Below, in pieces: positions 22,111 through 64,000 of a stretch of 64,000 nucleotides of DNA. This stretch comes from Terracoccus sp. 273MFTsu3.1 (GTDB lineage Bacteria; Actinomycetota; Actinomycetes; Actinomycetales; Dermatophilaceae): the NCBI RefSeq assembly GCF_000383675.1, contig NZ_KB911820.1:806001-870000 (forward strand). Direction: 5' to 3'. Below the pieces are notes generated by a model. It made no database searches. It had not been told where the DNA came from and was given only the letters and a program-made list of their open reading frames with translations. The first letter of the stretch is position 1, and every line of letters begins with the position of its first letter. A program made the position numbers and the translations under genes.

Positions 22111-22812
22111 TCAGGCGCCGCAGACTCCGCCGCAGCCACCCGCGCCGCAGCCGCCGCCGCACCCGCCCGCCGCGACGGGCTCCGGCACCTCGTGCCTGGT
22201 CGACCACGCGGTCTCGAGGGCCTGGGTGAAGACCTCGACGGGCTGGGCGCCCGAGACGCCGTACTTCCGGTCGAAGACGAAGAAGGGGACCGACTCGATG
22301 CCGAGCATCTTGGCCGTCGCCTCGTCGCTGCGCACGTGGTTGCCGTAGTCGTCGGAGTCGAGCATGGCGCGCACGGCGCCGTCGTCGAGACCGATCTCGG
22401 TCGCGAGCCGCACGAGCACCTCGTGGTCACCGACCGCGAGGCCGTCGGTGAAGTAGGCGCGCATGAGGCGCTCGTGGGCGGCGTCGGCCAGTCCCTGCTC
22501 GGCGGCGAGGTGGACGACCCGGTGGGCGTCGAACGTGTTGCCGTAACGGGCCTGCTCCCAGTTGAACGTGAGGCCCAGCTCGGCAGCCGCCGCGGCCATC
22601 GACCGGTGCTGCGCGACGGCCTGCTCGCGCGTCGTGCCGTACTTGGCCGCCACGAGGTCGACGAGCGCGACGTCCGGGGCCGGCTCGGCTCCGCGGTCGA
22701 GCTCGAAGCTGTGCCACGTCACCTCGACCTCGTCGGCGTGCTCGAACTGCGCGAGCGCGCCCTCGAGGCGGCGCTTGCCGAGGTAGCAGAACGGGCACAC
22801 GATGTCGGACCA
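22111..22812 (-). pseudogene. DsbA/FrnE-like thiol oxidoreductase, N-terminus cut off by prophage insertion
   Basis: A thioredoxin-fold DsbA-family protein. The frame begins WSDIVCPFCYLGKR, where CPFC is the redox active site; family members normally have about ten residues before WSD. Upstream the frame passes into phage DNA (codons for T-S-F) and meets a TAG at 22824-22822, so the native start codon is missing. A GTG inside IVCPF (22800) could in principle restart a shortened protein with the active site at its very end. The C-terminal tail is extremely Gly/Cys-rich (GGCGGGCGAGGCGG). The missing N-terminal codons should be at attR. Confidence 0.85.
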
Positions 22813-22830
22813 GAAACTGGTCTAAACTGC
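22800..22830. other. attL junction
   Basis: Host codons for WSDIV end at 22812 and phage sequence follows. A perfect inverted repeat GACCAG-AAA-CTGGTC (22808-22822) straddles this point, in keeping with the dyad-type crossover sites of large serine integrases. The integrase gene begins 40 bases further in. The exact core dinucleotide cannot be fixed without attR. Confidence 0.65.
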
Positions 22831-22862
22831 TACCCAGAACCGGTTCCGGAAAATGGGGAGAA

Positions 22863-24509
22863 ATGGCCACCAAGAAGAAGCGTAGTGCGTTCAAGCGGCG
22901 AGGCAACCGCGTCATCATCTACATCCGAGTGTCGGACACCACGGGCCGCGAGGACCGCCTCATCTCGCACAAGGTGCAGGAGGACCAGTGCGCGCGGCTC
23001 AGCCAGCGCGAGGGGCTGGACGTCATCGACGTCATCAGCGACATCGACCTCTCTGGCCGGACCTCCGAGAAGCGCGCCATCCGGAAGATCATCGACCGCA
23101 TCGAGCGGGGCGAGGCCGACGGCGTCGTCGTCTGGAAGATCAGCCGCTGGGGGCGCAACACCATCGACTCGATGCTCAACATCGGGGAACTGCAGGACGC
23201 GGGTGGCTTCATCGCTTCGGCCTCCGAGAACCTCGATGAGATCGACACCCCGGCGGGCAAGTTCCAGTTGACCGTCCTGCTCGCCATCGCCCAGATGTAC
23301 TCGGACGAGATCGGCAAGACGTGGGCCAACATCCATGACTACCGGGTCACCAACGGCAAGACGCACAACGGCTCCCCTCGGCTGGGATACGTCTACGCCA
23401 AGCACATCCCGGAGGACGCCGTCGACCGCTACCCGATGCCGGAGGGCGCGGACTACGCGGTCGACCCGGAGACGGGTCCATGGGTGCGCAAGGCCTTCGA
23501 GTGGTACGCCGCCGGGGAGTCCTACCCCGAGATCGTCCGTCGGCTAGAGGCAGCCGGGATCAAGTCGGTGCGGGGCAACCCCATCCGGGTCACGTCCCTG
23601 CGCGGCACGCTGGAGAGCGGCTTCGCTGCTGGGCTCGTGGTGGACCGTCGCGGAGAGGATGTCGAGTACCGCCCCGGCAAGCACGAGGCGCTTGTGTCGC
23701 CGGAGACGTGGGAAGCCTGCCTCCAGCGTGCGAAGAAGAAGTCGGACCCTCGGACCAAGTCCGCCCCGTTCAGGCTCGCAGGGCTGCTGTTCTGTGGCAC
23801 CTGCGGGACGCGCATGGTGGCCCAGTGGCGCACCAACAAGAGGACCCAGAAGAAGTACCGCTTCTTCCGGTGCGGGCGCGTCCAGAAGACCTCCCGGATG
23901 GTCTGCCCGGCCCCCGCACTGGTCGACGAGACCCGCGCCGAGAAGACGATGCTGGAGTGGCTGCGCGAGAACGCCGAGGGTGAGTCGGCGAAGAACACTG
24001 AGATGTCGCGAGCCATGGCCGTCGACCGCGCGGAGGTGGACCTGACCAAGATCGACAAGGAGATCTCGCGGCTCGACCGCTCCATGCTGCGCCTCTACAA
24101 CGAGTACGAGGCGGGCCGCGTGGCGCAGCACGTCTACAAGTTGAAGGAGACGGAGATCCTCGAACAGCGCGAGCGACTCGAAGCCGCCAAGGACAGTGCC
24201 AACATCGCCGTGAAGGTCAACGCCATCCCATCCCTCACGGTCTTCGGGGCAGTGCTCGCAGGCTGGGAGCGCCTCTCTCCCGCCGTCATGAACGAAGCGC
24301 TGCAGGCAGTGGTCGGGGAGGTGCTCGTCTACAAGGCGGACCAGCGGTGGGCCCGCTCGCGCCTGCGCGTTGTAGGACAGTGGGAGGACATGGTGTCCCC
24401 GGGTCTTCGTGACCGAATGCGCGAGGTCCAAGAGGAGGCCAAGCGTCAGGCTGCCGAGGAGGTCAACTGGAAGCCGCTGGCGGCGAAGGCGGATCTGACC
24501 GCAGTCTGA
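22863..24509 (+). CDS. int: Large serine recombinase (phage integrase)
   Basis: A 548-residue integrase that recombines attP with the attB in the DsbA-like gene. The catalytic serine is in IIYIRVSD (Ser24), the resolvase core continues through VVWKISRWGRN and LAIAQMYSDEIG, the recombinase domain spans about residues 170-300, a zinc ribbon has LFCGTCGTRM and the later cysteines in RCGRV and MVCPAP, and a coiled-coil follows (residues about 375-450). GGGGAGAA precedes the ATG. It directly abuts attL, as is usual, and is followed by a strong terminator. Confidence 0.95.
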   Translation: MATKKKRSAFKRRGNRVIIYIRVSDTTGREDRLISHKVQEDQCARLSQREGLDVIDVISDIDLSGRTSEKRAIRKIIDRIERGEADGVVVWKISRWGRNTIDSMLNIGELQDAGGFIASASENLDEIDTPAGKFQLTVLLAIAQMYSDEIGKTWANIHDYRVTNGKTHNGSPRLGYVYAKHIPEDAVDRYPMPEGADYAVDPETGPWVRKAFEWYAAGESYPEIVRRLEAAGIKSVRGNPIRVTSLRGTLESGFAAGLVVDRRGEDVEYRPGKHEALVSPETWEACLQRAKKKSDPRTKSAPFRLAGLLFCGTCGTRMVAQWRTNKRTQKKYRFFRCGRVQKTSRMVCPAPALVDETRAEKTMLEWLRENAEGESAKNTEMSRAMAVDRAEVDLTKIDKEISRLDRSMLRLYNEYEAGRVAQHVYKLKETEILEQRERLEAAKDSANIAVKVNAIPSLTVFGAVLAGWERLSPAVMNEALQAVVGEVLVYKADQRWARSRLRVVGQWEDMVSPGLRDRMREVQEEAKRQAAEEVNWKPLAAKADLTAV

Positions 24510-24520
24510 CGGGTAACGCA

Positions 24521-24554
24521 AGAGCCCCAACCGGGAATCACCGGTTGGGGCTCT
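24521..24554 (+). terminator. Strong terminator after integrase
   Basis: AGAGCCCCAACCGG, six-base loop, CCGGTTGGGGCTCT: a perfect 14-bp stem 12 bases after the integrase stop. Its other side faces the 3' end of the minus-strand pair, so it probably ends transcription from both directions. Confidence 0.85.
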
Positions 24555-24560
24555 CGTGTG

Positions 24561-24689
24561 TCACGCGGCCTCCGCCATCTCCTGCTCTGGGGCGGGGAGG
24601 TCGCCCTGTTGATGAAGTTCGACGAGCGCGGGGCCCATGATGGCCCAGAAGCGGTTCCAGCACTGTTCCTTGTCCATGGCCGGAACCAT
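24561..24689 (-). CDS. Small phage protein, unknown
   Basis: A 42-residue protein, helical and acidic at the C-terminus (LPAPEQEMAEAA), with an aromatic core CWNRFWAIMGPAL. The ATG at 24689 follows the TGA of the upstream gene by one base (TGATATG), so it is translationally coupled; a second ATG at 24677 is also possible. It is one of only two minus-strand genes in the prophage part of the window. Not recognised. Confidence 0.55.
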   Translation of the reverse strand: MVPAMDKEQCWNRFWAIMGPALVELHQQGDLPAPEQEMAEAA

Positions 24690-24690
24690 A

Positions 24691-25197
24691 TCAGACAACC
24701 GGAACAGTGGTCCCGCTTGCCATGCGTGCGGCCCGCTGGGCTGCGATCTGCTCGCGCTGGTAGTCGGCAGCCTCCCGGTGGGTCGCGGGGGTGCCAGAGA
24801 CGCGCACGGCGTCGAACTGCTCACCTGCCAGCAGCGACGTGGCCGCGCGGTGGGTACCCGACAGCAGGACCTCGCGGTCCCGGACAGTGTCATGGAAGAC
24901 GACGGGGTGCTGGTTGCCCGCCTGATGCGCGTCGGCGAAGAGAGTGCCGGGGTTCTTCATGTAGTGCTCGACACCTGCCCGGGTCAGCCCCGGCTGGCTT
25001 CCGTGAAGGTTGCGGGGGTCGACCTTCACCATGTGGGCCTCGGGGTTGGCCAGCGCCTCGTCGACCATGCGCGGGTCGAAGGTGCGGTGGGTGCGGGAGG
25101 GGGACGCCTGCGGGAAGGGGGAGACAGTGGTCGGAGACCCGTCCGGGAACATCTTCTCGACGGAGCCTGCGCCCCAGAACTGGGCCGTTCGTGACAT
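24691..25197 (-). CDS. ParB-like N-terminal fold protein (tentative), unknown function
   Basis: A 168-residue phage protein. The middle contains VDPRNLHGSQPGLT, HPVVFHD, and VLLSGTHRAATSLLAGEQFDAVRV; a basic residue inside an SGTHRAA motif followed by a helix is the layout of ParB/Srx nuclease-like domains. The tail is basic and helical (YQREQIAAQRAARMA). GAGGT precedes the ATG. It is transcribed away from the late genes, from the divergent palindrome at 25226-25253, so a role in lysogeny or superinfection control is possible but unproven. Confidence 0.55.
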   Translation of the reverse strand: MSRTAQFWGAGSVEKMFPDGSPTTVSPFPQASPSRTHRTFDPRMVDEALANPEAHMVKVDPRNLHGSQPGLTRAGVEHYMKNPGTLFADAHQAGNQHPVVFHDTVRDREVLLSGTHRAATSLLAGEQFDAVRVSGTPATHREAADYQREQIAAQRAARMASGTTVPVV

Positions 25198-25225
25198 GGG
25201 TGACCTCTCGTGGTTCACTTGTGGA

Positions 25226-25253
25226 GTCAATCAGTACAAGGGTACCGATTGAC
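25226..25253. promoter_or_regulatory. Divergent operator-like palindrome
   Basis: GTCAATCAGTAC, AAGG, GTACCGATTGAC: arms of 12 bases with one mismatch around a 4-base centre. Each arm ends outward in TTGAC, a -35-like element, one for each direction. It lies between the minus-strand gene at 25197 and the plus-strand gene at 25287. The right arm matches the repeated phage element YGTCAACCGGATC in reverse. Confidence 0.6.
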
Positions 25254-25286
25254 ACGCAACGCTTTCCGAATCTGAAAGGCCCCACC

Positions 25287-26705
25287 TTGGCCCTCTCGAC
25301 ACCCGGACTGCGCGGGCTCTACGAGTCCGACGCCCGTGTCCGAAAAGCCCTCGACTCCGATCAACCCTCGCCCGAGGTGGCCCGCTACCTCGCGGACGCC
25401 GGGTACCAGACCAGCGAGCGGGCGGTGAGACGGCTGCGGGCTCGGGTGGCTCATCCCGACGGGCGGCTGACGCCCAACTCGATCCCGGACCGGCTCATCG
25501 AGAGCCAGAGCAAGAAGCGCATCGAGGGCAGTGCCTCCCTGAAGGACGGCGGCAAGGAGGGGACCTTCGAGGTCCGCCTCCCGGAGCCCATCGTCAACGA
25601 CAACTGGGACCACGTCTTCGAGCACTTCAACCTCGACCCCGAGAAGTTCTTCATCGTCGGCGACACCGTCAACATGAAGATGTCGAAGTGGGAGCAGTCC
25701 AAGCGCACCGAGGACGGCGACCGCGACATGGCGCAACTGAGCGCCTACTCCTACTCGGCCGCGTTCAAGCGCCGCAGCGACGAGGCCATCCGGCCCGAGG
25801 TCTTCGAGCAGTGGCGCATGCAGATCCTCGACCGCCCGTTCGAGCCGGTGCTTCATACGAGGCTCGCGATCCCGCGAGGCACGTACGACCTGAACATCGC
25901 AGACCCGCAGTTGGGCAAGAAGGGCACGGCCGAGGCCGTCGAGAACTGGCAGCGCGGTGTGCGCTGTCACAAGGAAGAGATCAAGCGCCTGACGGCCTTC
26001 GGGACGCCCGTGGAGCGCGTGCACGTCGCGTGGCTCGGTGACGAGACCGAGGGCGTCGCGAACAACTACGGCAACCAGCCCCACACGGTGGAGTTGAACC
26101 AGACGCAGCAGTTGGAGTTGGACTTCGACCTGCGCATGTGGACGCTGCGAGAGTTGCTCGAACTCGGCATCCCCCTCTCGGCGTCCTCCGTCATCTCCAA
26201 CCACGGCGAGTGGACGCGCAATGGGTCCAAGGACGTCGTCACGACGAAGAACGACAACGCCAGCACCCACATCGCCCGGCAGGTGCAGAAGGCCTTCGCG
26301 ACGCTGGAGCCCTTCGGCATCCCGCACATCGACTGGACCATCGGCGAGGACCACCCGGGCATCGTCGTCAACCTGTCCGGGATCGACACCTACTTCTCCC
26401 ACGGCTACATCGAGAAGGGTCGTGGGCAGTCCACGGAGATCCGCACCAAGGCAGCCATCGAGCGCCAGATCCTAGGCGACACGCCGCGATTCGGGCCCGT
26501 TCCGCTCTGGATGATGGCCCACTACCACCACTTCTACGCGCAGGAGTTCGAGGGCCGCACGCTCTTCGGCATGCCCGCGCTGGAGGCCGAGCGCTCGTCC
26601 GAGTACATGCTCCACCAGTTCGGCGTATGGAGCCCTTCCGGCATGTTCGGGGCAGTGGTCGGCGACCACCTCGCTCGCGGCTGGTCCAACGTCAACGTCT
26701 TCTAA
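25287..26705 (+). CDS. Metallophosphoesterase-like phage protein with N-terminal helix-turn-helix
   Basis: A 472-residue protein. Residues about 5-55 look like a helix-turn-helix (SPEVARYLADAGYQTSERAV). The C-terminal half follows calcineurin-like phosphoesterase order with some altered motifs: NIADPQLG, VAWLGDETEG, VISNHGEW and MMAHYHHF correspond to the D-x, GDxxE, GNH and GHxH metal-binding blocks. The TTG start at 25287 is chosen because GAAAGG lies seven bases upstream; no ATG fits. Relatives occur in actinophages; nuclease or phosphatase activity is inference. Confidence 0.68.
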   Translation: MALSTPGLRGLYESDARVRKALDSDQPSPEVARYLADAGYQTSERAVRRLRARVAHPDGRLTPNSIPDRLIESQSKKRIEGSASLKDGGKEGTFEVRLPEPIVNDNWDHVFEHFNLDPEKFFIVGDTVNMKMSKWEQSKRTEDGDRDMAQLSAYSYSAAFKRRSDEAIRPEVFEQWRMQILDRPFEPVLHTRLAIPRGTYDLNIADPQLGKKGTAEAVENWQRGVRCHKEEIKRLTAFGTPVERVHVAWLGDETEGVANNYGNQPHTVELNQTQQLELDFDLRMWTLRELLELGIPLSASSVISNHGEWTRNGSKDVVTTKNDNASTHIARQVQKAFATLEPFGIPHIDWTIGEDHPGIVVNLSGIDTYFSHGYIEKGRGQSTEIRTKAAIERQILGDTPRFGPVPLWMMAHYHHFYAQEFEGRTLFGMPALEAERSSEYMLHQFGVWSPSGMFGAVVGDHLARGWSNVNVF

Positions 26706-28401: not shown

Positions 28402-28416
28402 CCCCACCCCGTTCAC

Positions 28417-30344: not shown

Positions 30345-31916
30345 ATGTCCGATCTGGTTGATGAGCAAGACGAGTTTGGCGACGAGACCGAGGCCGAGCG
30401 TGCTGCCCGGGAGATGCTCGAAGACGCCGTCAACTCCATCTCCATGGAGACCGTGGAGATGCTCATCGACAAGATGATGCTCGTGGTCGACGAACTCTCC
30501 GGCCACCCCCTGCGCCCCTACCAGATCCCCTTCGCCCGGCGGATCTTGGAGTCGCTGATCATCAACGACGGCGCGACCCTCACGGCCCTCTTCGCCCGCC
30601 AGAGCGGCAAGTCGGAGACGGTGGCCAACGTCATCGCCGCCGTCATGATCATGTTCCCGCGCCTCGCGAAGATCTTCCCCGACCTGCTCGGCCGCTTCTC
30701 CGAGGGCGTCTGGGTTGGTGCCTTCGCGCCGGTCGACGATCAGGCCGACACCCTCTTCACCCGCATCACGCGCAACCTCCAGAGCGAGCGCGCCATGGAC
30801 ATCCTCGCGGACCCCGACATCGACGAGACGGTCGTCTCGAAGTCGAAGGAGTTCCACCTGAAGAAGTGCGGCTCGCTCGTCCGCAAGCAGACCGCCCACC
30901 CGCGCGCCACCATCGAAGGCCGCACGTACCACCTCATGCTCATCGACGAGTGTCAGGGCGCGGACGAGGTCATGGTCAACAAGTCCATCGGCCCGATGGG
31001 TGCCTCGACCAACGCGACGATGATCTTCACCGGCACCCCCACCTACACCAAGGGCGTCTTCTACAAGACGATCCAGATGAACAAGCGGCAGGCCACCCGT
31101 CGCGGGGCCCGCCAGAACCACTTCGACGCCGACTGGAAGGCCGTCGCGAAGACCAGCGAGAACTACAAGAAGTTCGTGCTGAAGGAGATGCTCCGCATCG
31201 GCGAGGACTCCGACGAGTTCAAGTTGGCCTACCGCCTCATGTGGCTGCTCGACCGAGGGATGTTCGTCACCTCGGAGCGGCTGGAGGAACTGGGCGACAA
31301 GAGCATGGAGATCGTCCCGGCCTACAGCAACTCGCCGGTCATCGTCGGCATCGACCCAGCGCGCAAGATCGACTCCACCATCGTCACCGTGGTGTGGGTC
31401 GACTGGGATCATCCCGACCAGTTCGGCTACTACGAGCACCGGGTCCTCTCGTGGCTCGACCTCGGCGGCATGAACTGGGAGGAGCAGTACTTCCGCATCG
31501 TCGAGTTCCTCTCCAACTACCGCGTCATGGCCGTCGGCATCGACAGCGGGGGAGTGGGCGACGTCGTGGCCCAACGCCTGCGGATCCTCATGCCCCACAC
31601 CGAGGTCGTGGACGTCTCCTCCTCCCGGCCGGAGCAGTCCAAGCGCTGGAAGCACCTGTCGGAGTTGATCGACCGGGGCAAGATCGGCTGGCCCGCGCAC
31701 GCCAAGACGCGACGGCTGAAGGCCTACCAGCGGTTCATCCAGCAGATGGCCGATCTGGAGAAGCACTTCGAGGGCCCACACGTCCTCGGTGCTGCCCCGA
31801 ACGAGCGCGACGCGCACGACGACTACGCCGACAGCCTCGCCATCGCGTGCAGCCTGACGACCGACCTGACGATGCCGACGGTCGAGGTCTCCAGCGCTTC
31901 GTGGCTCCGTGGGTGA
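30345..31916 (+). CDS. terL: Terminase large subunit
   Basis: A 523-residue DNA-packaging motor. The ATPase half has Walker A ARQSGKSE near residue 85, Walker B LMLIDECQGADE near 200 and a coupling FTGTPTY. The nuclease half has the RNase H-like acidic triad in VGIDPARKIDST (about 333), VGIDSGGVGD (about 397) and HDDYADSLAIA (about 490). Length and order are normal. It starts the head operon; its TGA is part of the repressor-like site at 31914. Confidence 0.95.
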   Translation: MSDLVDEQDEFGDETEAERAAREMLEDAVNSISMETVEMLIDKMMLVVDELSGHPLRPYQIPFARRILESLIINDGATLTALFARQSGKSETVANVIAAVMIMFPRLAKIFPDLLGRFSEGVWVGAFAPVDDQADTLFTRITRNLQSERAMDILADPDIDETVVSKSKEFHLKKCGSLVRKQTAHPRATIEGRTYHLMLIDECQGADEVMVNKSIGPMGASTNATMIFTGTPTYTKGVFYKTIQMNKRQATRRGARQNHFDADWKAVAKTSENYKKFVLKEMLRIGEDSDEFKLAYRLMWLLDRGMFVTSERLEELGDKSMEIVPAYSNSPVIVGIDPARKIDSTIVTVVWVDWDHPDQFGYYEHRVLSWLDLGGMNWEEQYFRIVEFLSNYRVMAVGIDSGGVGDVVAQRLRILMPHTEVVDVSSSRPEQSKRWKHLSELIDRGKIGWPAHAKTRRLKAYQRFIQQMADLEKHFEGPHVLGAAPNERDAHDDYADSLAIACSLTTDLTMPTVEVSSASWLRG

Positions 31917-33693: not shown

Positions 33694-35424
33694 ATGTCGG
33701 CTATCTCGTTCGCGGCCCCCTCAGCGAGGGCGTCAGGGGCCGACCTCGCCGTCTCCATCTCGCCGCTCGGTCTCGTCGAACTGGCGGACGAGGAGTTCGA
33801 GGTCCACGGGCCTCGCCTCAACCGCTACGCCACCAACTGGGCGTGGTACCTCGGCCACCACTACTCCGTCGCGAAGCCCGCCGGTGACAACAACCTGACG
33901 TTCAACTACGTCCGTGCGTTCTCCGACTACACGACCAACTTCTGCTTCGCTCGCGGCGTCGAGTTCACGACCTCGAAGATGTACCAGCACATCGTCCCCT
34001 CGCTCTACAAGCGCATCTGGGAGACGGACAACGACAAGATGGCCACCCTCATGGAGATCGGGCAGGGCGGCTCGGTCTCCGGCGACGTCTTCGTCAAGGT
34101 CGCCTACGAGGAGGCGTGGACCGACCCGGCCGGGCAGGTTCATCCCGGGCGTGTCTGCATCCTTCCGCTGAACCCCCAGCACTGCTTCCCCGAGTTCCAC
34201 CCCCACGACCGCAACCGGCTCGTGCGCTTCAAGTTGAAGTACCGCTTCTGGAGCACGACGGCCGACGGCACGCGGCAGGTGTTCACCTACACCGAGGTGA
34301 TGACCGACGAGGCCATCGAGGAGTACCTCAACGACGAGTTGATCGACTCGCGCCCGAACCCGCTGGGCCAGATCCCCATCGCCTTCACCCCGAACTTCCG
34401 CGTCTCCGGCTCGCCGTGGGGCCTGTCGGACATCGGCGACATCATCGGGCTCAACCGCGAGTTCAACGAGAAGGCGTCGGACATCTCCGACATCATCAAC
34501 TACCACGCCGCTCCGGTCACGATCATCAAGGGCGCGAAGCCCGGGTCGCTGGAGAAGGGCGCGAACAAGGTCTGGGGCGGGCTGCCCAAGGACGCCGAGG
34601 TGCACAACCTCGAAGGCATGGGTGACCTCGCTGGCTCGATGGGCTTCTTGGAGACCCTGAAGCGGGCCATGCACGAGATGACCGGCGTGCCGGAGAGCGC
34701 GCTGGGGCAGATGCAGCCGATTTCCAACACCGCTGGAGTCGCCCTCGCAATCATGTTCCAGCCCATGATGCAGCGCTGGAACCACAAGAAGTTGACCTAC
34801 GGCGCGCTGCTGAAGAAGATCAACCGGCTCGCGCTGGAGACGCTCTTCCTCATGGAGCCCAACACGCTCTACTACGACCCGCAGACGGACGGCATCATCC
34901 AAGAGGGTCAGCCCGAGGCCATCGACCCGCGCGACCCCCTCGTCTTCGAGCACAACATCGAGTGGGCCCCGCCCCTGCCGGTCGACGCTCTCCTGAAGTT
35001 GCAGGAGATGCAGATGAAGATGGCCATGGGTCTGGAGTCGAAGCGCGGCGCGATCCGCGAACTCGGCAACGCCTTCCCCGACGAGAAGCAGCAGGAGATC
35101 TTCGAGGAGATGGTCGCGGACGCCAAGTACGAAGGCGCTCTCGCTCTCCTGAAGGCCCAGTTCGCCTCGGCGATCACCGCCGCCACCGGCATGGTCCCGG
35201 GCGCGGACGGCTCGATGGAGCCCCTACCCCCCGCTCCTGCTCCGACCGGAGACAGTGGCTCGGAGGGTGCGCCTGCCCCCGGTCCGATGGCTGCCGCGCC
35301 CAACCCGCTGAACTCCATGGAGGCCGTCACGGCCGAGGGTCAGCAGCAGGCTCTGGCCGAGATCGTGACGCAGGCCTACGGCACGCGCGCTGGCATGCGC
35401 AAGATGCCAACCGGATCGAACTGA
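33694..35424 (+). CDS. Portal protein
   Basis: A 576-residue portal, the dodecameric ring through which DNA passes. Typical features: an alpha/beta opening with FNYVRAFSDYTTNFCFARG, GSVSGDVFVKVAYEEA, VTIIKGAKPG, GMGDLAGSMGFLETLKRAMHEMTG and the long helical stem region LAIMFQPMMQRWNHKKLTYG. A Pro/Ala-rich tail (PLPPAPAPTG) ends the chain. Length and location between terminase and scaffold fit. Confidence 0.9.
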   Translation: MSAISFAAPSARASGADLAVSISPLGLVELADEEFEVHGPRLNRYATNWAWYLGHHYSVAKPAGDNNLTFNYVRAFSDYTTNFCFARGVEFTTSKMYQHIVPSLYKRIWETDNDKMATLMEIGQGGSVSGDVFVKVAYEEAWTDPAGQVHPGRVCILPLNPQHCFPEFHPHDRNRLVRFKLKYRFWSTTADGTRQVFTYTEVMTDEAIEEYLNDELIDSRPNPLGQIPIAFTPNFRVSGSPWGLSDIGDIIGLNREFNEKASDISDIINYHAAPVTIIKGAKPGSLEKGANKVWGGLPKDAEVHNLEGMGDLAGSMGFLETLKRAMHEMTGVPESALGQMQPISNTAGVALAIMFQPMMQRWNHKKLTYGALLKKINRLALETLFLMEPNTLYYDPQTDGIIQEGQPEAIDPRDPLVFEHNIEWAPPLPVDALLKLQEMQMKMAMGLESKRGAIRELGNAFPDEKQQEIFEEMVADAKYEGALALLKAQFASAITAATGMVPGADGSMEPLPPAPAPTGDSGSEGAPAPGPMAAAPNPLNSMEAVTAEGQQQALAEIVTQAYGTRAGMRKMPTGSN

Positions 35425-36491: not shown

Positions 36492-37472
36492 ATGGCGAAT
36501 GCAATCACGGGATCCAGCGCCCTCTCGGCCAGCCCGACCAACTACTCCGGCGCGAACTCGCAGTTGTCGCAGGCGATCCAGACCATCTGGTCCAAGGAGA
36601 TCCTGTTTCAGGCGATGCCGATCCTCCGGTTCGAGCAGTTCGCGGTCAAGAAGACCGAACTCGGCGTTCAGCCCGGTCTGACGATCAACTTCATGCGCTA
36701 CAACAACCTCGGTCAGGCCAGCCAGTTGGTCGAGGGTGTCCGCATGGAGACGAACGCGCTCTCCGCCACGCAGTTCAGCATCACCGTCGCGGAGCACGGC
36801 TACGCCGTCGCCGTCTCGGAACTCCTGCTCAACGCGTCGTTCGACGACATCATGGCGTCGGCGTCCCGCCTGCTCGGCCGCAACATGGCCACCTACCTCG
36901 ACGTGTCGGCCCGTGACACCCTCCTCACGGCCTCCAGCACGATCTACGGCTACGACAAGTCCGGCCTGACGTTCGGTGCCAACAGCCCGTACGACCACGG
37001 CACGGCTGCCGCCAACCGCGCGGCGCTCACGGCGAACCACAAGTTCACCACGGCCACGGTCAAGGACGCCGTCGAGACCCTCGCGACGAAGAACACCCCG
37101 CGCTTGGGCGAGACGTACGTCTGCTTCATCCACCCGCACCAGTCGCGTCAGTTGCGTGACGACCCGGAGTTCATCGAGGTCACGAAGTACGCCGCCCCCG
37201 GCAACTTCATGCTCGGTGAGATCGGCCGTCTCAACGACGTCGTCTTCATCGAGACGACCCAGATCAAGCAGGTCGCCGGTACCGCCGGTCTGCCGGTCTA
37301 CCAGTCGATCTTCCTCGGCGACAACGCCTTCGGCCACGCGATCTCGCTGCCGGTGGAACTCCGCGACGGCGGTATCCTCGACTTCGGTCGTGAGCACGCC
37401 CTCGCGTGGTACGCCATCTGGGGCCTCGGCCTCATCACGGACCAGTCGGTCCTGAAGGCCGAGACCGCCTGA
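36492..37472 (+). CDS. Major capsid protein, N4-gp56-like HK97 fold
   Basis: A 326-residue capsid protein. The beginning, TNYSGANSQLSQAIQTIWSK with PILRFEQFAVKKTELGVQPG and LTINFMRYNNLGQAS, is the N4-gp56 capsid family pattern. The core FIHPHQSRQLRDDPEF and GEIGRLNDVVFIETT belongs to the P and A domains. Length is typical. A strong terminator follows, so capsid mRNA is likely made as a separate, abundant unit. Confidence 0.9.
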   Translation: MANAITGSSALSASPTNYSGANSQLSQAIQTIWSKEILFQAMPILRFEQFAVKKTELGVQPGLTINFMRYNNLGQASQLVEGVRMETNALSATQFSITVAEHGYAVAVSELLLNASFDDIMASASRLLGRNMATYLDVSARDTLLTASSTIYGYDKSGLTFGANSPYDHGTAAANRAALTANHKFTTATVKDAVETLATKNTPRLGETYVCFIHPHQSRQLRDDPEFIEVTKYAAPGNFMLGEIGRLNDVVFIETTQIKQVAGTAGLPVYQSIFLGDNAFGHAISLPVELRDGGILDFGREHALAWYAIWGLGLITDQSVLKAETA

Positions 37473-40583: not shown

Positions 40584-42089
40584 ATGCCTTTCCCCAAGAG
40601 GCCCGGAATCACGATCAACGAGTCGCTCACGCCGCTCCCCAAGATCGACGCAACCTCCGGCCGTCCCTCGGCTGTCTTCGTCGGCCTCAACGCCGCCGGT
40701 GGCCCGGTCGACCCCACCGTCGTCTCCTCGTGGGCGGAGTTCAACCTCCTCTACGGCGGCTTCGGCGTCGGCGGTGACCTGCTCCCGTTCTCGGTCTTCG
40801 AGTACTTCAACAACGGCGGCGGCGCGGCCTACATCATCCGCGCGACGAACGCGAACGCTGCTGTCGCGACGAAGACGTTCGCCGACACCGAGGGTGCCCC
40901 CACCCAGACCCTGACGGTCTCCGCGAAGGCCCCGGGCCTCTACGGCAACTCGATCACGGTCGACGTCACGGCGGGCTCGGCCGCGAACTCGGTCAGCGTC
41001 ACGGTGACCAACACCAAGACCGGCATGACCGAGGTCTACAACGACGTCACCCTCGACCCGGTCGCCCCGCGCAACCTGCTCTCGATCATCAACGGCGCGT
41101 CCTCGCTCGTCACCGTCTCGGCCAACCTCCCGGCCGGTGCGTTCCTCCCGACGTACAACCCCGCGCTCGTCGCGGCTGTCAGCCTCGTCGGCGGCACCGA
41201 CGGCACCGGCACCCCGGACCTCGTCGCGGCCACGCAGAAGATCGCCAACATCAGCGGCATCTTCGACATCAACCTCCCGGGGGTGAACGACGCGACGACG
41301 ATCAACGCCCTCACCACGTGGGCCGCGACGCAGAACAACGTCTTCCTCGTCGTGGACGGCGTCAAGGGCAGCGCGACCGACACCGCCGCGCTCAACCAGA
41401 CGGCCCAGTCGACGCTCGTGCAGGGCTTCACGCCCACGAGCACGGCTGCCGTCTACGGTCCGTGGCTGCAGGCCGTCGACCCCATCGGCGCTGTCGCGGG
41501 CTCCCCGCGCTTGCTGCCCCCGGGTGGCTTCGTCCTCGGCCAGTACGCCCGCACGGACGCCTCGCGGGGCGTGCAGAAGGTCGCCGCTGGCATCGACACG
41601 ACGCTCAACGGCGTCATCGGTCCGCAGTTCCGCTACACCAGCGCTCAGCAGGACACGCTGGCCCCCATCGGCCTGAACATCATCAAGCCGATCCCGGGTG
41701 CGGGCACCTGCATCTTCGGCGCGCGGACGCTGTCCAACGGCATGCCGGACCGCTACGTCAACATCCGGCGCACGCTCATCGCCCTGAAGAACGGCCTGAC
41801 GGAGATCACCCGCTTCGCCATCTTCGAGAACAACGACGACGACCTCCGCCAGCAGGTGCAGGACATCTGCGAGCAGTACCTGCGCACCCAGTGGGCGTCC
41901 GGGATGCTCGCGGGCGAGACGGAGGACAACGCGTTCTTCGTCGTGTGCGACGACACCAACAACACCCCCGCGACCATCGCGTCGGGTGCCGTGAACATCC
42001 AGATCGGTCTGGCCCTCCAGACCCCGGCGGAGTTCATCATCTTCAACATCGGCCAGACCGCCACTGGCACGACCACGCAGACGGTCTGA
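40584..42089 (+). CDS. Contractile tail sheath protein
   Basis: A 501-residue sheath protein, the contracting outer tube. N-terminal KRPGITINESLTPLP and SAVFVGLNAAGGPVD, SWAEFNLLYGGFG, FEYFNNGGGAAYIIRAT are standard; the C-terminal DRYVNIRRTLIALKNGLTEI, WASGMLAGETEDNAFFVVCD and INIQ-type end strands belong to the conserved sheath core. AAAGGAG precedes the ATG. This gene fixes the phage as a myovirus. Confidence 0.95.
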   Translation: MPFPKRPGITINESLTPLPKIDATSGRPSAVFVGLNAAGGPVDPTVVSSWAEFNLLYGGFGVGGDLLPFSVFEYFNNGGGAAYIIRATNANAAVATKTFADTEGAPTQTLTVSAKAPGLYGNSITVDVTAGSAANSVSVTVTNTKTGMTEVYNDVTLDPVAPRNLLSIINGASSLVTVSANLPAGAFLPTYNPALVAAVSLVGGTDGTGTPDLVAATQKIANISGIFDINLPGVNDATTINALTTWAATQNNVFLVVDGVKGSATDTAALNQTAQSTLVQGFTPTSTAAVYGPWLQAVDPIGAVAGSPRLLPPGGFVLGQYARTDASRGVQKVAAGIDTTLNGVIGPQFRYTSAQQDTLAPIGLNIIKPIPGAGTCIFGARTLSNGMPDRYVNIRRTLIALKNGLTEITRFAIFENNDDDLRQQVQDICEQYLRTQWASGMLAGETEDNAFFVVCDDTNNTPATIASGAVNIQIGLALQTPAEFIIFNIGQTATGTTTQTV

Positions 42090-42103: not shown

Positions 42104-42661
42104 ATGGCAACCACCACGTCCATCGGACACATCGCCACCGACCCGCTGAGGAACTTCAAGTTCGACGTGAACATCGCGCACCCGGGCTTCCCGGCGGGCT
42201 TCCTGAAGATGGGCTTCATGAACGTCTCGGGCCTGTCCCAGACGACCGAGGTCATCCCCTACCGCGAGGGTGGCATGAACACCACCACGCAGAAGATGCC
42301 CGGGCAGACGGACTTCGCGCCGATCTCGCTCTCGCGCGGCGTCATCGTCGGGCCGCAGCCGGTCCTGCAGTGGGTGAAGCAGTTGTTCACCGTGCAGCAG
42401 GGCACCGGCACGCGCTCGGCGGGTCTCACGGACTTCCGCGCCACGCTGACGATCAACGTCAAGGACCACCCGGTCACGCGCGGCAAGGTGCCCGTCAAGG
42501 CCCAGTTCAAGGTCTACAACGCATGGCCGACGGCCGTCGCGTGGTCCGACCTCGACGCTGGCGCGAACGCGATCATGGTCAACCAGATCACGCTGGCCCA
42601 CGAGGGCTTCGACCACGCTGTGGCGAAGGACTTGGGTGCCAATTCCGAGGCTCGCGTCTGA
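42104..42661 (+). CDS. Tail tube protein, T4 gp19-like
   Basis: A 185-residue inner tube protein. RNFKFDVNIAHPGFPAG and MGFMNVSGLSQTTEVIPYREGG are the hallmark of the gp19/CIS tube family; TQKMPGQTDFAPISLSRGV follows as usual. It begins 14 bases after the sheath and ends in a TGA that is part of a TGACAAG...CGTCAAG element. Length is normal. Confidence 0.93.
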   Translation: MATTTSIGHIATDPLRNFKFDVNIAHPGFPAGFLKMGFMNVSGLSQTTEVIPYREGGMNTTTQKMPGQTDFAPISLSRGVIVGPQPVLQWVKQLFTVQQGTGTRSAGLTDFRATLTINVKDHPVTRGKVPVKAQFKVYNAWPTAVAWSDLDAGANAIMVNQITLAHEGFDHAVAKDLGANSEARV

Positions 42662-54026: not shown

Positions 54027-54446
54027 ATGCCCATCGAGATGTCTCACCCCTTCCGGATCTCCGCCAACGGCGGCGTCTCGACGACCCCGAACCCCGACGC
54101 GCAGATCGCGCAGAGGGTGAAGGCCCTGCTCTCCACCCAGCCCGGTGAACGCCGCGTCAACTACGCCTTCGGCGTGCCGACCACCTCGATGCTCTTCGAG
54201 AACAAGACGGCTCTGACCGGCGGCATCCTCGCCGGGCAGGTGCGCGACACCCTCGCCGTCTTCGAGCCCGGAGTCGCCGTCGAGAACATCGACGTGACCC
54301 CTTCGGCCGACGACGCCGGGGGTGTCGACGTCGCCTTGGCGTACTCGCGCCGTGAGGCCGCGACCACCGACGCCGGGCTGTCCCGGAACACCAACACTGC
54401 CGTCATCAGCATCGGCGGCACCGTCAGCGAGATTGTGAGGGGCTGA
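54027..54446 (+). CDS. Baseplate wedge protein, gp25/gpW-like
   Basis: A 139-residue protein of the GPW/gp25 family: SHPFRISANGGVSTTPN, QRVKALLSTQPGERRVNYAF and GVPTTSMLFENKTAL, followed by VRDTLAVFEPGVAVENIDV. It nucleates the sheath and is also structurally lysozyme-like in families. Its stop overlaps the next ATG. GGAGG precedes the ATG. Confidence 0.92.
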   Translation: MPIEMSHPFRISANGGVSTTPNPDAQIAQRVKALLSTQPGERRVNYAFGVPTTSMLFENKTALTGGILAGQVRDTLAVFEPGVAVENIDVTPSADDAGGVDVALAYSRREAATTDAGLSRNTNTAVISIGGTVSEIVRG

Positions 54447-59808: not shown

Positions 59809-59820
59809 AAGCAGGCCCGA

Positions 59821-60063
59821 ATGCTCGCTGAGTACCTTCAGTCCGTCATCCGTTCCGTCGTCCCGGTCGCAGTCGCCGCTGTGGTCTCCTTCGGCCTCCG
59901 CTACGGGGTCCACCTCGACGAGGGTGCCACGGCCGACCTCCTCGGTGCCCTCGTGGGTAGCGGCTACTACGCGCTCGTGCGCTGGGCCGAGGAGAAGTTC
60001 CCCAACCTCGGCTGGCTCCTCGGCAAGCCGGGCACGCCGTCGTACGGGAGTGCCGGGGACTGA
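59821..60063 (+). CDS. Holin-like membrane protein 1
   Basis: An 80-residue protein: one strong transmembrane helix (VVPVAVAAVVSFGLRYGVHL), a second weaker segment (DLLGALVGSGYYALVRWA), then a short charged end. Size, position after the fibres, and the partner membrane gene fit holins, but there is no adjacent endolysin. Its stop overlaps the next ATG. Confidence 0.62.
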   Translation: MLAEYLQSVIRSVVPVAVAAVVSFGLRYGVHLDEGATADLLGALVGSGYYALVRWAEEKFPNLGWLLGKPGTPSYGSAGD

Positions 60064-60299
60064 TGTTCCACTTCGCGCTGCTCGCCCTCTCGGTCTTCCT
60101 CGTCTACGAGATCGGGAGGGCGAGCCTGCCCGACCGCGTGCCGGGCATCGTCCACGCTCTGGGCCTCCCGGTGATCGCCCTGCTGCTCAACCGGTACGCC
60201 TCCGAGGAGATCCTCATGGCGGTCGCCGCCGCCTCCGTCGCTGCCGTCATCGACCGCATCATCGTCGGCAGTTCGCGCACCATTTCGCGCGTCAGGTAG
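60063..60299 (+). CDS. Holin-like membrane protein 2
   Basis: A 78-residue protein with three hydrophobic segments (FHFALLALSVFLVYEI, ALGLPVIALLLN, ILMAVAAASVAAVI) and a basic C-terminus (IIVGSSRTISRVR). It is coupled to the first holin-like gene (TGATG). It may be a holin, antiholin or lysis regulator. The tail operon appears to end here. Confidence 0.62.
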   Translation: MFHFALLALSVFLVYEIGRASLPDRVPGIVHALGLPVIALLLNRYASEEILMAVAAASVAAVIDRIIVGSSRTISRVR

Positions 60300-60306
60300 C
60301 AACTAC

Positions 60307-60335
60307 TTGAGCCGATCCGATTGACAGGCTATGCT
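60307..60335 (+). promoter_or_regulatory. Promoter with reverse operator in the spacer
   Basis: TTGAGC, 17-base spacer, TATGCT. GATCCGATTGACA (60314-60326), the reverse complement of the 13-bp element, occupies the spacer. It opens the replication region, 47 bases before the TTG at 60382. Confidence 0.6.
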
Positions 60336-60381
60336 TGTCGAGGAGCGAAACCCGCTCCAAAATCGACCAAGGAGCATTGAT

Positions 60382-61632
60382 TTGAGCAAGAAGACCATCG
60401 CCATCGCGTTCGTCGGCAGCGCCCCGGTGCGACCCCTCGCCATCCGCTCGGCCCTGAACGACTGGCTCGGCTTCGGCGAGCCCGACGCGGACGGCCTCTT
60501 CGAGGAGTCGGCGAAGTACGACGTCAGCCTGCTCTTCCCCGCCGGTCCGGACCACTGGAACCCGGCGCTGGAGGAGGTCTGGAAGTGGTCCGCCATGGCG
60601 AACCTCGAATACGACCTCGTCCTCGACAAGCACGGCAAGGACGACGACTCGCTGGAGTTCGTCGTCGAGGACGCCGAGCAGGTCATCGAGGTGACCAACG
60701 TCAGCAAGGCGCTCGTCGACAACCTCGACAAGACCGACGCGGACGAGAAGTTCATCGTCGCGCTGTGGGGCGAGGAGGGCGACGACGAGGCCGACTCCGT
60801 CCTGACCTTCTCCGAGGCAGCCGGGATCCCCGCCAAGGACCTGTCCGCCGCGCTCGACGACCTCGTCTACGGCGACCCCGAGGAGGACGAGCCCGAGGTT
60901 CAGCCCGAGCCGGACCCGGAGCCCGTGCCGGAGGAGCGCCCTCGCCGAGGTCGTCGCGGTGCCAAGGCCGAGGAGAAGGCCGAGGAGCCCGCCGCTGAGG
61001 AGGCTCCGCGCCGTCGCCGTGGTGCCAAGCCGGAGCCGGTCGCCGAGGAGCAGGCGCTCGACGAGGACGAGGAGACCCTCGACGACGAGCCCGTGGCTGC
61101 CCCGGAGCCGGTCAAGGAGGAGAAGCCCAAGACCACGCGCAAGGCCAAGGAGAAGGCTCCCGAGCCGGAGCCCGTCAAGGACGAGCCGGTGGCCGAGGAG
61201 AAGTCGTGGGGCGAGGCCGGTGCCGGTCACGTCGCCAAGGCCGACATCCCGCCGGTCGTCTGGGAGGCGCTGCAGAAGGCGCGTCGCTACATCGACCACA
61301 TCGACGTCGGCACCGCGATCAAGAACGACGCGGCCGAGACGATCTCCTCGCCCCTCGCACTGCTCCTCGGCAAGGCGCTGTCCGCGCTGGAGAACATCCA
61401 GAACGGCGAGCCCACCACCACGGAGCCGGTCAGCGTCGAGGAGAACGCCGAGGAGCCCAAGCGCCGGGGTCGCCCGCGCACCAAGGCCGAGGTGTTCCCC
61501 TACCTGCACAACGAGGCGGAGGGCACCTACCGCAAGGCCGGTCGTGGCCGTCCCCGCCGTGGCGAGACCCGCGTCGAGTTGACGCAGGAGCAGGTCGACG
61601 ATCTCACCAAGCAGGAACTCATCGAGGACTGA
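60382..61632 (+). CDS. AT-hook DNA-binding phage protein with acidic linker
   Basis: A 416-residue protein. The first 130 residues form an alpha/beta domain (KKTIAIAFVGSAPVRPLAIR, VSLLFPAGPDHWNPALEEVW, VIEVTNVSKALVDNLDKTDA) of unrecognised fold. A Pro/Glu/Lys-rich linker of about 130 residues follows, interrupted by RRGRRGAK and RRRRGAK. Near the end PKRRGRPRTKAEV and GRGRPRRGE are AT-hook-like minor-groove binding motifs. The TTG start is supported by GGAG. Perhaps nucleoid-like or replication-associated. Confidence 0.6.
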   Translation: MSKKTIAIAFVGSAPVRPLAIRSALNDWLGFGEPDADGLFEESAKYDVSLLFPAGPDHWNPALEEVWKWSAMANLEYDLVLDKHGKDDDSLEFVVEDAEQVIEVTNVSKALVDNLDKTDADEKFIVALWGEEGDDEADSVLTFSEAAGIPAKDLSAALDDLVYGDPEEDEPEVQPEPDPEPVPEERPRRGRRGAKAEEKAEEPAAEEAPRRRRGAKPEPVAEEQALDEDEETLDDEPVAAPEPVKEEKPKTTRKAKEKAPEPEPVKDEPVAEEKSWGEAGAGHVAKADIPPVVWEALQKARRYIDHIDVGTAIKNDAAETISSPLALLLGKALSALENIQNGEPTTTEPVSVEENAEEPKRRGRPRTKAEVFPYLHNEAEGTYRKAGRGRPRRGETRVELTQEQVDDLTKQELIED

Positions 61633-61647
61633 CCTCCAGATGACGCA

Positions 61648-61701
61648 GCAGGAGCCCCGGACTGGGAGGCAACGCCTTCAACCAAGTACCGGGGCTCCTG
61701 C
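61648..61701 (+). ncRNA. Nested hairpin in a 230-base non-coding gap
   Basis: GCAGGAGCCCCGG (61648-61660) pairs perfectly with CCGGGGCTCCTGC (61689-61701); the 28-base loop holds AGGC-AAC-GCCT, a second hairpin. It follows the AT-hook gene stop by 15 bases. Could be a terminator or regulatory RNA. The remainder of the gap to 61866 shows GACAACCGGTTGTG (61794-61807), a palindrome, and AT-rich sequence but no credible gene. Confidence 0.5.
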
Positions 61702-61866
61702 GCGGGACGTTCTCGCCGGTGCGGGGACCAACCGCTGCCACGGGGACCAGACCGTGTCCGGGAAGAACGTGAGCACCAACCCGGCCGGAAAGGGACAACC
61801 GGTTGTGCAGCATCAGATTACACGAATCGTTACCGAAACGCTACACAGAATGGACCAGTGACACCC

Positions 61867-62313
61867 ATGTCCGATCTCGGCACCCGCCGAACCCCCTACT
61901 CGATCCCCGACAACACCGAGCCCTTCCCCGAGGACCGGATGTCGTGGGCCATCGAGCAGATCCCTCATCTCTCGCCGCAGGAGTTCGTCGTCCTGCTTCA
62001 TCTCTCCCGCCACTCGTGGGGCCGTTACACCAAGCAGGGTGATGACCTCATCGGCTTCGTGCGCTCCGAGTGGTCCAGCGTCCGCCGCACGGCCGAGCAG
62101 ATGAGCAAGTCCCGCTCGTCGATCCAGCGCGCCATGGCGGGGCTGCGCGAGAAGGGGTACATCACCATCTCGCCGACGACCACCTCGCGCGGGAGCGGCC
62201 CCAGCGACATCAAGATCTGGTGGTTCGAGAGCGACGACATCATGCGCGAGGAAGTCCGCAACGACCCCGCAGCCCTGCCGGAGATCTTCCGCTCCGGTGA
62301 GCCCTCCGAGTAG
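61867..62313 (+). CDS. Winged-helix replication initiation-type protein
   Basis: A 148-residue protein. SWAIEQIPHLSPQEFVVLLH and SRHSWGRY then SEWSSVRRTAEQMSKSRSSI and QRAMAGLREKGYITI form a winged helix-turn-helix of the type in phage replication initiators (lambda O/DnaD-N style). Iteron-like repeats start five bases after its stop, and a DnaB-like helicase lies further downstream, so origin binding is a reasonable inference. ATG 61867 is used; GTG 61858 is in frame. Confidence 0.72.
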   Translation: MSDLGTRRTPYSIPDNTEPFPEDRMSWAIEQIPHLSPQEFVVLLHLSRHSWGRYTKQGDDLIGFVRSEWSSVRRTAEQMSKSRSSIQRAMAGLREKGYITISPTTTSRGSGPSDIKIWWFESDDIMREEVRNDPAALPEIFRSGEPSE

Positions 62314-62317
62314 TCGG

Positions 62318-62385
62318 GGGTGTCCCACCAGTGGGTCACATGGGTGTCCCACTGGTGGGTCGGGGGTGTCCCATTCGTGGGTCAC
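62318..62385. repeat. Three iterons, candidate phage replication origin
   Basis: Three 22-base copies of GGGTGTCCCAnnnGTGGGTC at 62318, 62342 and 62364. Each is itself a near palindrome (CCCA/TGGG). They sit directly after the winged-helix gene and before an AT-rich stretch CTCTTATAAGGAAG. This is the classical layout of an initiator-binding origin. Confidence 0.7.
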
Positions 62386-62396
62386 TCTTATAAGGA

Positions 62397-62433
62397 AGAG
62401 CACTGGCTTTTAGAGCACTGGCAGAGCGCTGGC
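62397..62433. repeat. Second repeat family at the candidate origin
   Basis: AGAGC[AG]CTGGC occurs at 62397, 62412 and 62423. The first and second flank TTTT; the third is back-to-back with the second. Together with the iterons they bracket the AT-rich segment. A GGCAG-CCG-CTGCC hairpin follows (62433-62446). Confidence 0.6.
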
Positions 62434-62464
62434 GGCAGCCGCTGCCGGAGAAGGAAGGACAACC

Positions 62465-63190
62465 ATGACCCGCTACGCGGACAACGACCCCCGAGCGCTC
62501 CTCGGTGATGAGCCCTCGGGCGACCGGTACGGCTCGAAGAAGCCGCCTGCGGCCCCTCGTGGCAAGCCCCGCTCCACCGGCGGCACCGGAAGCACCCGCC
62601 AGACGCGCGCCACGGCCCGCAGGAGCGACGAGGAGACCGTCCGGCAGGTTCGGGACGGCAAGCCTCAGAACAAGGCCTCCAGCGGCCTCTACGACACCCT
62701 CGCCGAGCAGTTCCTCTCGCAGGACTGGATCGCCACGCACCGAGGCAACACCGCGACGGTCCCGACCATCGAGGTGGGCGACACCGGCCGACCACTCATC
62801 GCCAAGATCCTCCGCGACAAGGTCGCCTCGGAGAAGCGCTTCGAGGGTCGCGACGACGAGAAGATCGCCGAGGTCGTGGAGTACGCGATGAAGCACTTCT
62901 TCGACCGGCTCGACAACGACCTTCGCCGGGGGCGGCTTGTCAACCAGTTCGTCAGTTCCGATTGGTGGGATACGCTTATCCCTGAAGCCATCGACCACTG
63001 GCACGCCGTCCGCATCCCGCCCGAGGTGTTCGAGCGCGGACGACAGGAGGCCGAGGCCTTCTACGCGGCGTGGCCCACGCGTGACGCCCGCCCAGCACGA
63101 CCGACCAACCCGCGTGAGGCTGCCGAGCGCTTCGAGCAGATCCTCGCCGCCAACCGACCGAACTACGACGATTGCGAGCCGCTTACGTGA
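62465..63190 (+). CDS. Replication-region protein, possible helicase loader
   Basis: A 241-residue protein. A basic, disordered N-terminus (RSTGGTGSTRQTRATARR) is followed by a helical domain (GLYDTLAEQFLSQDWIATH, EVVEYAMKHFFDRLDNDL, FVSSDWWDTLIPEAIDHWHA). It lies between the origin-like repeats and the DnaB-like gene, to which it is joined by a GTGA overlap, so it may load the helicase or bind ssDNA. No known loader motif is visible. GAAGGAAGG precedes the ATG. Confidence 0.55.
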   Translation: MTRYADNDPRALLGDEPSGDRYGSKKPPAAPRGKPRSTGGTGSTRQTRATARRSDEETVRQVRDGKPQNKASSGLYDTLAEQFLSQDWIATHRGNTATVPTIEVGDTGRPLIAKILRDKVASEKRFEGRDDEKIAEVVEYAMKHFFDRLDNDLRRGRLVNQFVSSDWWDTLIPEAIDHWHAVRIPPEVFERGRQEAEAFYAAWPTRDARPARPTNPREAAERFEQILAANRPNYDDCEPLT

Positions 63191-64000
63191 GTGCCAACGG
63201 CAGGTACCTCCTCTCGAAGGTCGTTGAGACCCAGCGCCTTCAACCCCTGCTCGCTGCGGGCATCGGCCCCCAGCACTTCCCCGTGGAGATCGACCGCGAG
63301 GTCTTCGAGACCCTCCACGACAGTCATACGCGGCACGGGTCGCTCCTGAGCGTGAAGACGCTGAAGATGGACTTCCCGGAGTACAAGTTCATCAAGGTCC
63401 CCGACGACATCGAGATCCTCGTCGAGCGCGTCCAGCGGGACTACCTCGGCTCGATGCTCTCGCTGACGATCAACGCGGCAGCCGAGTCGTGGGACGGCGG
63501 GGACTTCGACGCCGCGCGCCTGTCCATGGAGATCGGCCTGAAGCAGATGCAGGCCAACAAGACCAACGGCCTGCGCACCCTCGACATCCGGTCCCTCGCC
63601 GAGAAGTGGGAGAACGACCGACTCAACACCGAGAAGGGCATCCCGTTCGGCATCAAGGAGATCGACGACGAGACCGGTGGCGTCTTCTCCGACCAGTTCG
63701 TCGTCGTCATCGGCCCTCCCGGCTCGGGTAAGTCCGCCCACCTGCTGTCGTACGCCGACGCCGCTGCCAAGGCGGGCCACCGCGCGCTCTTCATCACCAT
63801 CGAGATGAGCGACGAGCACCAGATGGCCCGCCTCGCGGCCAAGCACTCGGGCGTGCCCTACAAGACCATCCGTCGTGGCACCCCCGACCAGCGCCAGAAG
63901 CAGAAGATCGCCGCCGCGCTGGAGAAGATCGCCGACGGGGAGCGCCTGATCATTCAGGAGGTGCCCGCCGAACTGGCGTCGATGGAGACGGTCAACGACC
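63187..64000 (+). CDS. dnaB: DnaB-like replicative helicase (3' end outside window)
   Basis: The first 271 residues of a RecA-fold helicase. An N-terminal helical domain (LSKVVETQRLQPLLAAGIGP and the following helices) is followed by VIGPPGSGKSAHLLSY, the Walker A site near residue 180, and ALFITIEMSDEHQMARLAA, the DnaB H1a region. The GTG overlaps the previous stop (GTGA). Phage-encoded DnaB would unwind at the nearby origin. The Walker B region lies beyond the window end. Confidence 0.88.
   Translation, partial: MSANGRYLLSKVVETQRLQPLLAAGIGPQHFPVEIDREVFETLHDSHTRHGSLLSVKTLKMDFPEYKFIKVPDDIEILVERVQRDYLGSMLSLTINAAAESWDGGDFDAARLSMEIGLKQMQANKTNGLRTLDIRSLAEKWENDRLNTEKGIPFGIKEIDDETGGVFSDQFVVVIGPPGSGKSAHLLSYADAAAKAGHRALFITIEMSDEHQMARLAAKHSGVPYKTIRRGTPDQRQKQKIAAALEKIADGERLIIQEVPAELASMETVND

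Follow-up and report, generated by a model that had tools for sequence, protein, structure and literature searches.

The DNA analysed here (the window) is a 64,000-nt stretch of the Terracoccus sp. 273MFTsu3.1 genome (G000:C1:806001-870000), to which neighbouring stretches were joined to give 164 kb, numbered throughout in window coordinates. It contains the left part of a complete prophage of approximately 104.2 kb (104,204 bp; 22809-127012), with a GC content of 66% in the prophage part of the window as compared to 73% in the flank. The integrated state is indicated by a serine integrase, an att core and a split host gene (Table 1). The integrase gene starts 49 bp past the left core, and the split gene, which encodes a DsbA/FrnE-like protein, is unbroken in all eight other genomes of the genus but broken at the junction in the lysogen; its reading frame is regained when both host flanks are joined. 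The 6-bp att core was located by eye on the split gene, and no direct repeats of 14 bp or longer shared by both prophage ends were found.

Table 1. Features of the prophage and its left junction (window coordinates)
Feature	Position	Strand	Remarks
Prophage, left part	22809..64000	.	continues to 127012 (L005, L006, L008, L009)
attL core ACCAGA	22809..22814	.	partner copy 127007-127012
Host DsbA/FrnE-like gene, 3' part	22111..22814	-	split by prophage
Large serine integrase	22863..24509	+	PF00239, PF07508, PF13408
Terminase large subunit	30414..31916	+	PF17289; 62-64% identical to Streptomyces phages
Portal protein, SPP1 type	33694..35424	+	PF05133
Major capsid protein	36492..37472	+	PF25209
Contractile tail sheath	40584..42089	+	PF17482 above cut-off; two more sheath domains below theirs
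Tail tube	42104..42661	+	PF06841
Baseplate wedge gp25	54039..54446	+	PF04965
Remaining CTYRAG site	60306..60311	.	between ORFs
Other remaining CTYRAG site	103560		inside ORF 103386-103616

Among the 155 ORFs found inside the prophage with a home-made gene caller, 148 are on the plus strand. Judging from the predicted products, this is an integrated phage with a contractile tail, which, beyond the structural genes, encodes DNA polymerase A, RecA, a class II-like ribonucleotide reductase, primase-like proteins, an RNA ligase, a polynucleotide kinase and Lsr2 proteins. A Pfam scan of 151 of these 155 ORFs, which covers Pfam-recognised modification enzymes only, gave no DNA methyltransferase family.

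A sequence-only reading of the window had reported that AGCT is absent from the 41 kb between 22808 and 64000. The absence is real (0 copies, with 109 expected from a second-order Markov model or 126 from base composition), but the length was underestimated, since the tract spans 104 kb; the whole prophage carries no AGCT, as compared to 308 expected (Markov) or 200 (synonymous-codon shuffle). The chromosome flank is rich in AGCT, as the same reading had noted, with 71 copies in positions 1-22807 where 63.5 are expected and the last host copy at 22707. The AGCT-free gap runs from 22707 to 127193 (104,486 bp); no other gap in the joined 164 kb is longer than 1,607 bp. Seven of eight further 20-kb stretches (L007 and L009-L014) carry 62 to 94 AGCT each, including L009, into which the prophage extends by its final 3 kb; L008, inside the prophage, carries none.

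AGCT is not the only word missing. While AGCGCT is indeed frequent in the prophage (80 copies, 85 expected), which had been read as a sign that the avoidance is specific to AGCT, such specificity was rejected, as no fewer than seven further palindromes are missing just as completely. The words with no copy in 104,204 bp, with their means over 100 synonymous-codon shuffles of 30,223 codons (87% of the prophage), are AGCT (200), CCWGG (401), GCCGGC (116), CCGCGG (107), GGCGCC (102), GGCSGCC (78), CTCGAG (50), CGATCG (46) and ATCGAT (6.6). Eight words fall below one tenth of their expected number with more than 15 copies expected. ATCGAT was probably also eliminated; its shuffle mean lies below 15 and it is scarce in the host flanks as well (1 copy, 9.6 expected). 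Among 214 motifs with a shuffle mean of at least 6, every further zero contains one of the missing words named above. The next-strongest depletions in the synonymous shuffle are CTYRAG, of which CTCAAG forms part (2 copies, 115 expected), followed by GCTAGC (1, 7.5 expected) and CTWAG (6, 30 expected).

Most of these words are at or near normal numbers in the surrounding host DNA. In 59.5 kb of host flanks, observed and expected counts are 180/191 for CCWGG, 202/162 for AGCT, 147/138 for GCCGGC, 100/87 for CCGCGG, 94/96 for GGCGCC, 86/77 for CTCGAG and 90/77 for GGCSGCC; only CGATCG is lowish (38/94), besides the scarce ATCGAT. Control words are normal within the prophage (GTCGAC 148/126, CCSGG 599/571, GATC 563/575, CTGCAG 62/35), and when exact 5- and 6-mers of sufficient expected number are ranked, the strongest depletions are palindromes or CCWGG. 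Many gapped palindromes and bipartite words of the Type I kind were tested as well, and the only zeros among them are low-count ones. One GCCGGC and one CCGCGG that had been thought to lie inside the tract sit past attR in host DNA. AT-rich degenerate words (WACGTW and WKASTMW, for example) are not claimed, the order-2 expectation being poor for these.

Codon choice in the prophage follows the avoidance of AGCT. As had been claimed, Glu-Leu pairs are written GAA-CTN (64 of 77) or GAG-TTG (13 of 77), Gln-Leu pairs mostly CAG-TTG (21 of 33) and Lys-Leu pairs mostly AAG-TTG (24 of 31). GAA is otherwise scarce, with 151 codons in total against 1,749 GAG. TTG codons number 90 in all, and 58 of these are found in Glu-, Gln- or Lys-Leu pairs, where NAG-CTN would create AGCT. 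No tRNA genes were found in window positions 22000-64000, but the prophage carries three further on, for Leu(CAA), Asn-GTT and Lys(CTT) (L008:19769-19842, L009:101-174 and 236-310; window coordinates 123769-124310). Avoiding AGCT imposes TTG after NAG codons, and TTG is read by the Leu-CAA tRNA; it could be suggested, tentatively, that this tRNA helps pay for the avoidance.

A search with the terminase found five Streptomyces phages at 62-64% identity (BRock, present as two records, Alone3, LuckySocke, GiJojo and pSt2308), followed by four more distant records, 47 IMG/VR loci and nine loci in assemblies (five from Streptomyces, two from Nonomuraea, one from Herbidospora and one from an Acidobacteriaceae MAG). 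One locus, L016, is 100% identical and begins at the integrase; it probably represents the same isolate and was not counted as independent. The Streptomyces phages share a contractile tail with the prophage and have records of 112-116 kb. The comparison with Borockvirus, the genus of BRock, covered terminase identity (62% to BRock) and a gene order read by eye from the annotations.

Comparison with related phages, which had been proposed as a check, gave a twofold answer: relatives are also missing palindromes, but each lineage its own set. In 17 of 18 sets (the prophage is one of them; most are partial, and some are genome stretches that contain host DNA), one or more palindromes reach no more than a tenth of their expected number, in combinations that differ between lineages; the exception is L053. 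BRock, Alone3, GiJojo and pSt2308, the four of these Streptomyces phages that were examined, each lack several palindromes, as the prophage does. BRock is devoid of CAGCTG, GAGCTC, CTGCAG, CCGCGG, GCATGC, AGGCCT and CTCGAG, with two GGATCC and one GCCGGC left. Unlike the prophage, the BRock group as a whole misses CAGCTG, CTGCAG, GAGCTC, GGATCC and more, whereas AGCT and CCWGG as such are not eliminated there; it also differs in its large tRNA arrays, with Leu(CAA) one among the many tRNAs of Alone3. The IMG/VR locus 3300047470_000212 (71%) lacks GCCGGC, CTCGAG, CTGCAG, CAGCTG and GAGCTC, and has a single CCGCGG left. Joint loss of AGCT and CCWGG was found only in the prophage and its sister lineage, while AGCT alone is also zero in L146, L147, L151 and L166; words therefore come and go separately. 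A more distant relative, IMG/VR 3300033555_000005 (L098-L100), is without GGCGCC, GAGCTC, CACGTG, CCCGGG, AGGCCT, GGGCCC, TCCGGA and others, with one CGATCG left.

Among eight related Streptomyces, Nonomuraea and Herbidospora genomes, four, all Streptomyces, carry a serine recombinase on the terminase contig at a distance of 68-73 kb, and no such gene was found near the terminase in the other four. All four lineages with the recombinase are also missing palindromes. Several members of the clade with missing sites therefore look temperate.

The sister lineage (L015, L211-L215), at approximately 85% nucleotide identity, allowed a direct look at how the absence is maintained. It lacks nearly all of the same words; the exceptions are one CCGCGG, outside the aligned columns, in all four contigs covering the place (L211, L213, L214 and L215), and one AGCT in L211, where L215 differs. 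Over 23,255 aligned columns (prophage against L015 plus L211) with 3,161 substitutions, placing the same base changes at random predicts 251 gains of forbidden sites in the prophage-to-sister comparison, and 1 was observed; in the reverse direction 248 are predicted and 0 were observed. For fifteen control palindromes the observed and expected gains were 243/369 and 238/366, so random placement overestimates by about a third, not two hundredfold. Approximately 6.3% of the single-base changes in the prophage would create a forbidden site, and with zero sites present, the genome can have taken up at most some 47 unselected substitutions (95%) after it last was free of such sites. The absence of sites has thus been kept by selection, still active, on both branches since the sister split. 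In addition, the sister contigs keep several CTYRAG sites but no CTCGAG; the purge of CTYRAG may therefore be recent in the prophage lineage.

AluI, NaeI, NarI and SacII originate from actinobacteria, AluI being linked with Arthrobacter luteus. In the lysogen itself, the search for an AGCT methylase that had been proposed did not lead to the prophage: the cytosine-5 methylase profile has only two matches, both at host loci outside the prophage, and PF01555 has no match in the lysogen. One of the two methylases is Dcm-like (best NCBIfam subfamily PRK10458, below its curated cut-off) and adjoins a protein with an EcoRII C-terminal domain (E 6e-41; EcoRII structures E 6e-25), the N-terminal half of which has no family match at E 0.1. 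EcoRII cuts CCWGG. Dcm methylates the same word (PMC8565308). The lysogen resembles the EcoRII/Dcm arrangement, with a putative specificity for CCWGG, although this match was recognised only in hindsight. The pair is separated by a transposase-like ORF from a protein with an MvaI/BcnI-type restriction domain (L077:10499-13426; G000:C14, minus strand), which is in one open frame after gyrA C-terminal sequence. Of 184 genomes of the host family, 4 have the EcoRII C-terminal domain, 1 has the MvaI/BcnI domain and 1 has the phage terminase, with the lysogen among the carriers of all three.

The XhoI family (4 of 186 genomes) and the NaeI family (8 of 184) are also found in the host family, neither of them in the lysogen. 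The prevalence of restriction enzymes failed as a discriminator, because the control BsuBI/PstI family is equally common (5 of 184 genomes) even though CTGCAG is over-represented in the prophage. The GGCSGCC specificity was derived here from absence alone. GGCSGCC is reported as an m5C motif of Micrococcus luteus (PMC8565308), which indicates that a cytosine methylase of such specificity exists in an actinobacterium. At L078:5952-10785 (G000:C1 near 394000-399000), C5 methylase, AIPR and DUF4420 genes resemble the MZA anti-phage system, with the matches to MzaE and MzaD below NCBIfam curated cut-offs.

Taken together, selection exerted by the restriction-modification systems of hosts has very probably purged the prophage of many Type II sites, and this selection is still active. 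A particle would inject unmethylated DNA into a cell with a Type II system, where any remaining sites would be cut; genomes with fewer sites would survive for this reason, and over many hosts at least eight specificities would be driven to zero, largely through synonymous codon choice, with selection holding the words there. We infer restriction cleavage as the selecting agent, along with the target of the EcoRII-like protein and hosts that carry the other enzymes. The sequence-only reading had also proposed long selection by host restriction systems, and this part of its explanation agrees with our results, whereas a single AGCT system does not, since at least eight specificities are missing jointly. 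Against the restriction reading, candidates for cognate enzymes were seen for few words (CCWGG in the lysogen, GGCSGCC methylation in M. luteus), the sister lineage is imperfectly clean, and ATCGAT and CGATCG are rare or lowish in the host flanks. The first of these points could favor another palindrome-directed host factor, such as a different defence or a binding protein, but this is very unlikely given that the words have Type II length and symmetry, that methylase counterparts exist for CCWGG and GGCSGCC, and that only orthodox Type II sites show avoidance this strong in the published data drawn on here (PMC6286503).

The earlier alternative was a phage-borne system directed at AGCT. A nuclease or restriction enzyme of this kind, cleaving AGCT in order to break down host DNA or exclude other phages, would require that the site be absent from the prophage. 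It could appeal to nuclease-like prophage genes encoding a PDDEXK_14 protein (L008:14291-14722), an SNase-like protein (L009:1465-1884) and a weak Cas4-like match below cut-off (L005:13115-14218). Such a system is scarcely credible, however, with at least eight unrelated words missing instead of one, no methyltransferase among the scanned ORFs, relatives that lack different words and a surrounding chromosome full of AGCT. Erosion of sites by host cytosine methylation and deamination (C to T) during lysogeny would be a mutational rather than a selective cause. CCWGG, GCCGGC and GGCSGCC are known targets of cytosine-5 methylases (PMC8565308), and for AGCT by itself the C-to-T neighbours amount to 1.36 times the mean of the shuffles. 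However, C-to-T, A-to-G and transversion neighbours of the eight missing words are raised alike (1.14, 1.11 and 1.09), so that no general signature is present and deamination is not the main route; moreover, erosion would not yield exact zeros across 104 kb, and the deficit of gains is seen on both branches. Deamination is accordingly a most improbable cause. If, on the other hand, the purge had been built up in a purely lytic lineage that gained its integrase lately, the prophage would be no exception to the rule for temperate phages. BRock is indeed described as virulent with no predicted lysogeny genes, in the portion of its report used here (PMC7453282), and among the loci compared, the only counterparts of the integrase are in the identical record L016 and in L029, the latter with 19% identity. 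This history nevertheless appears unlikely, as half of the eight relatives have the serine recombinase and miss palindromes too, the integrase gene itself is as free of forbidden words as the rest of the prophage, and the bound of about 47 substitutions leaves little room for unselected change.

The Streptomyces phage FP22 and other actinophages are insensitive to many restriction enzymes; FP22 would be a case of many specificities missing in one large actinophage, as in this prophage. Avoidance of restriction sites by phages has long been known, and the mechanism proposed here is the same one. In their survey, Rusinov et al. (2018; PMC6286503, drawn on in part) found that elimination affected 7.1% of the orthodox Type II pairs. 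It was raised only in non-temperate dsDNA phages, a statistical association and not a requirement, and lysogeny was reported to weaken the selection against sites. As in that survey, the missing words of the prophage are only palindromic and Type II-like, fall below one tenth of expectation and are accompanied by no phage methylation genes found; by contrast, at least eight words are missing from one integrated phage, a breadth that runs against the non-temperate pattern, although the survey used the CB statistic and the present counts did not. Unusual features are the number of specificities lost from a single integrated genome, the sets that differ from lineage to lineage in the clade, the direct test of maintenance and the recovery of a specificity reported once. 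No description of multi-site elimination in this clade was found in the open-licence literature, covered mostly at the level of titles and beginnings of abstracts.

Whether the missing palindromes of the clade form a restriction passport, listing the Type II systems of its hosts precisely enough to predict uncharacterised sites and kept clean by temperate members against the expected relaxation of selection under lysogeny, is evenly balanced in our judgment. Escape from restriction by sequence alone reaches at least eight specificities in this 104-kb integrated phage, and the prophage sequence in effect records the defences met. Missing words could be used to predict the restriction systems of hosts, including uncharacterised ones, and the clade, as a set of related genomes with different missing sets, represents a natural experiment that makes it testable whether temperate phages truly escape restriction-site selection. 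It also provides a warning that one missing word should not be taken as one enzyme.

The Acb2/Tad1 family comprises anti-CBASS and anti-Thoeris sponges. A 72-aa prophage protein (L006:2155-2373; window coordinates 86155-86373) matches the Acb2/Tad1 hairpin domain (E 3e-19), and the phage therefore probably carries active counter-defence in addition to the loss of sites. The phage also encodes a SpoVS-like protein (E 6e-18; L005:16821-17117, window coordinates 80821-81117).
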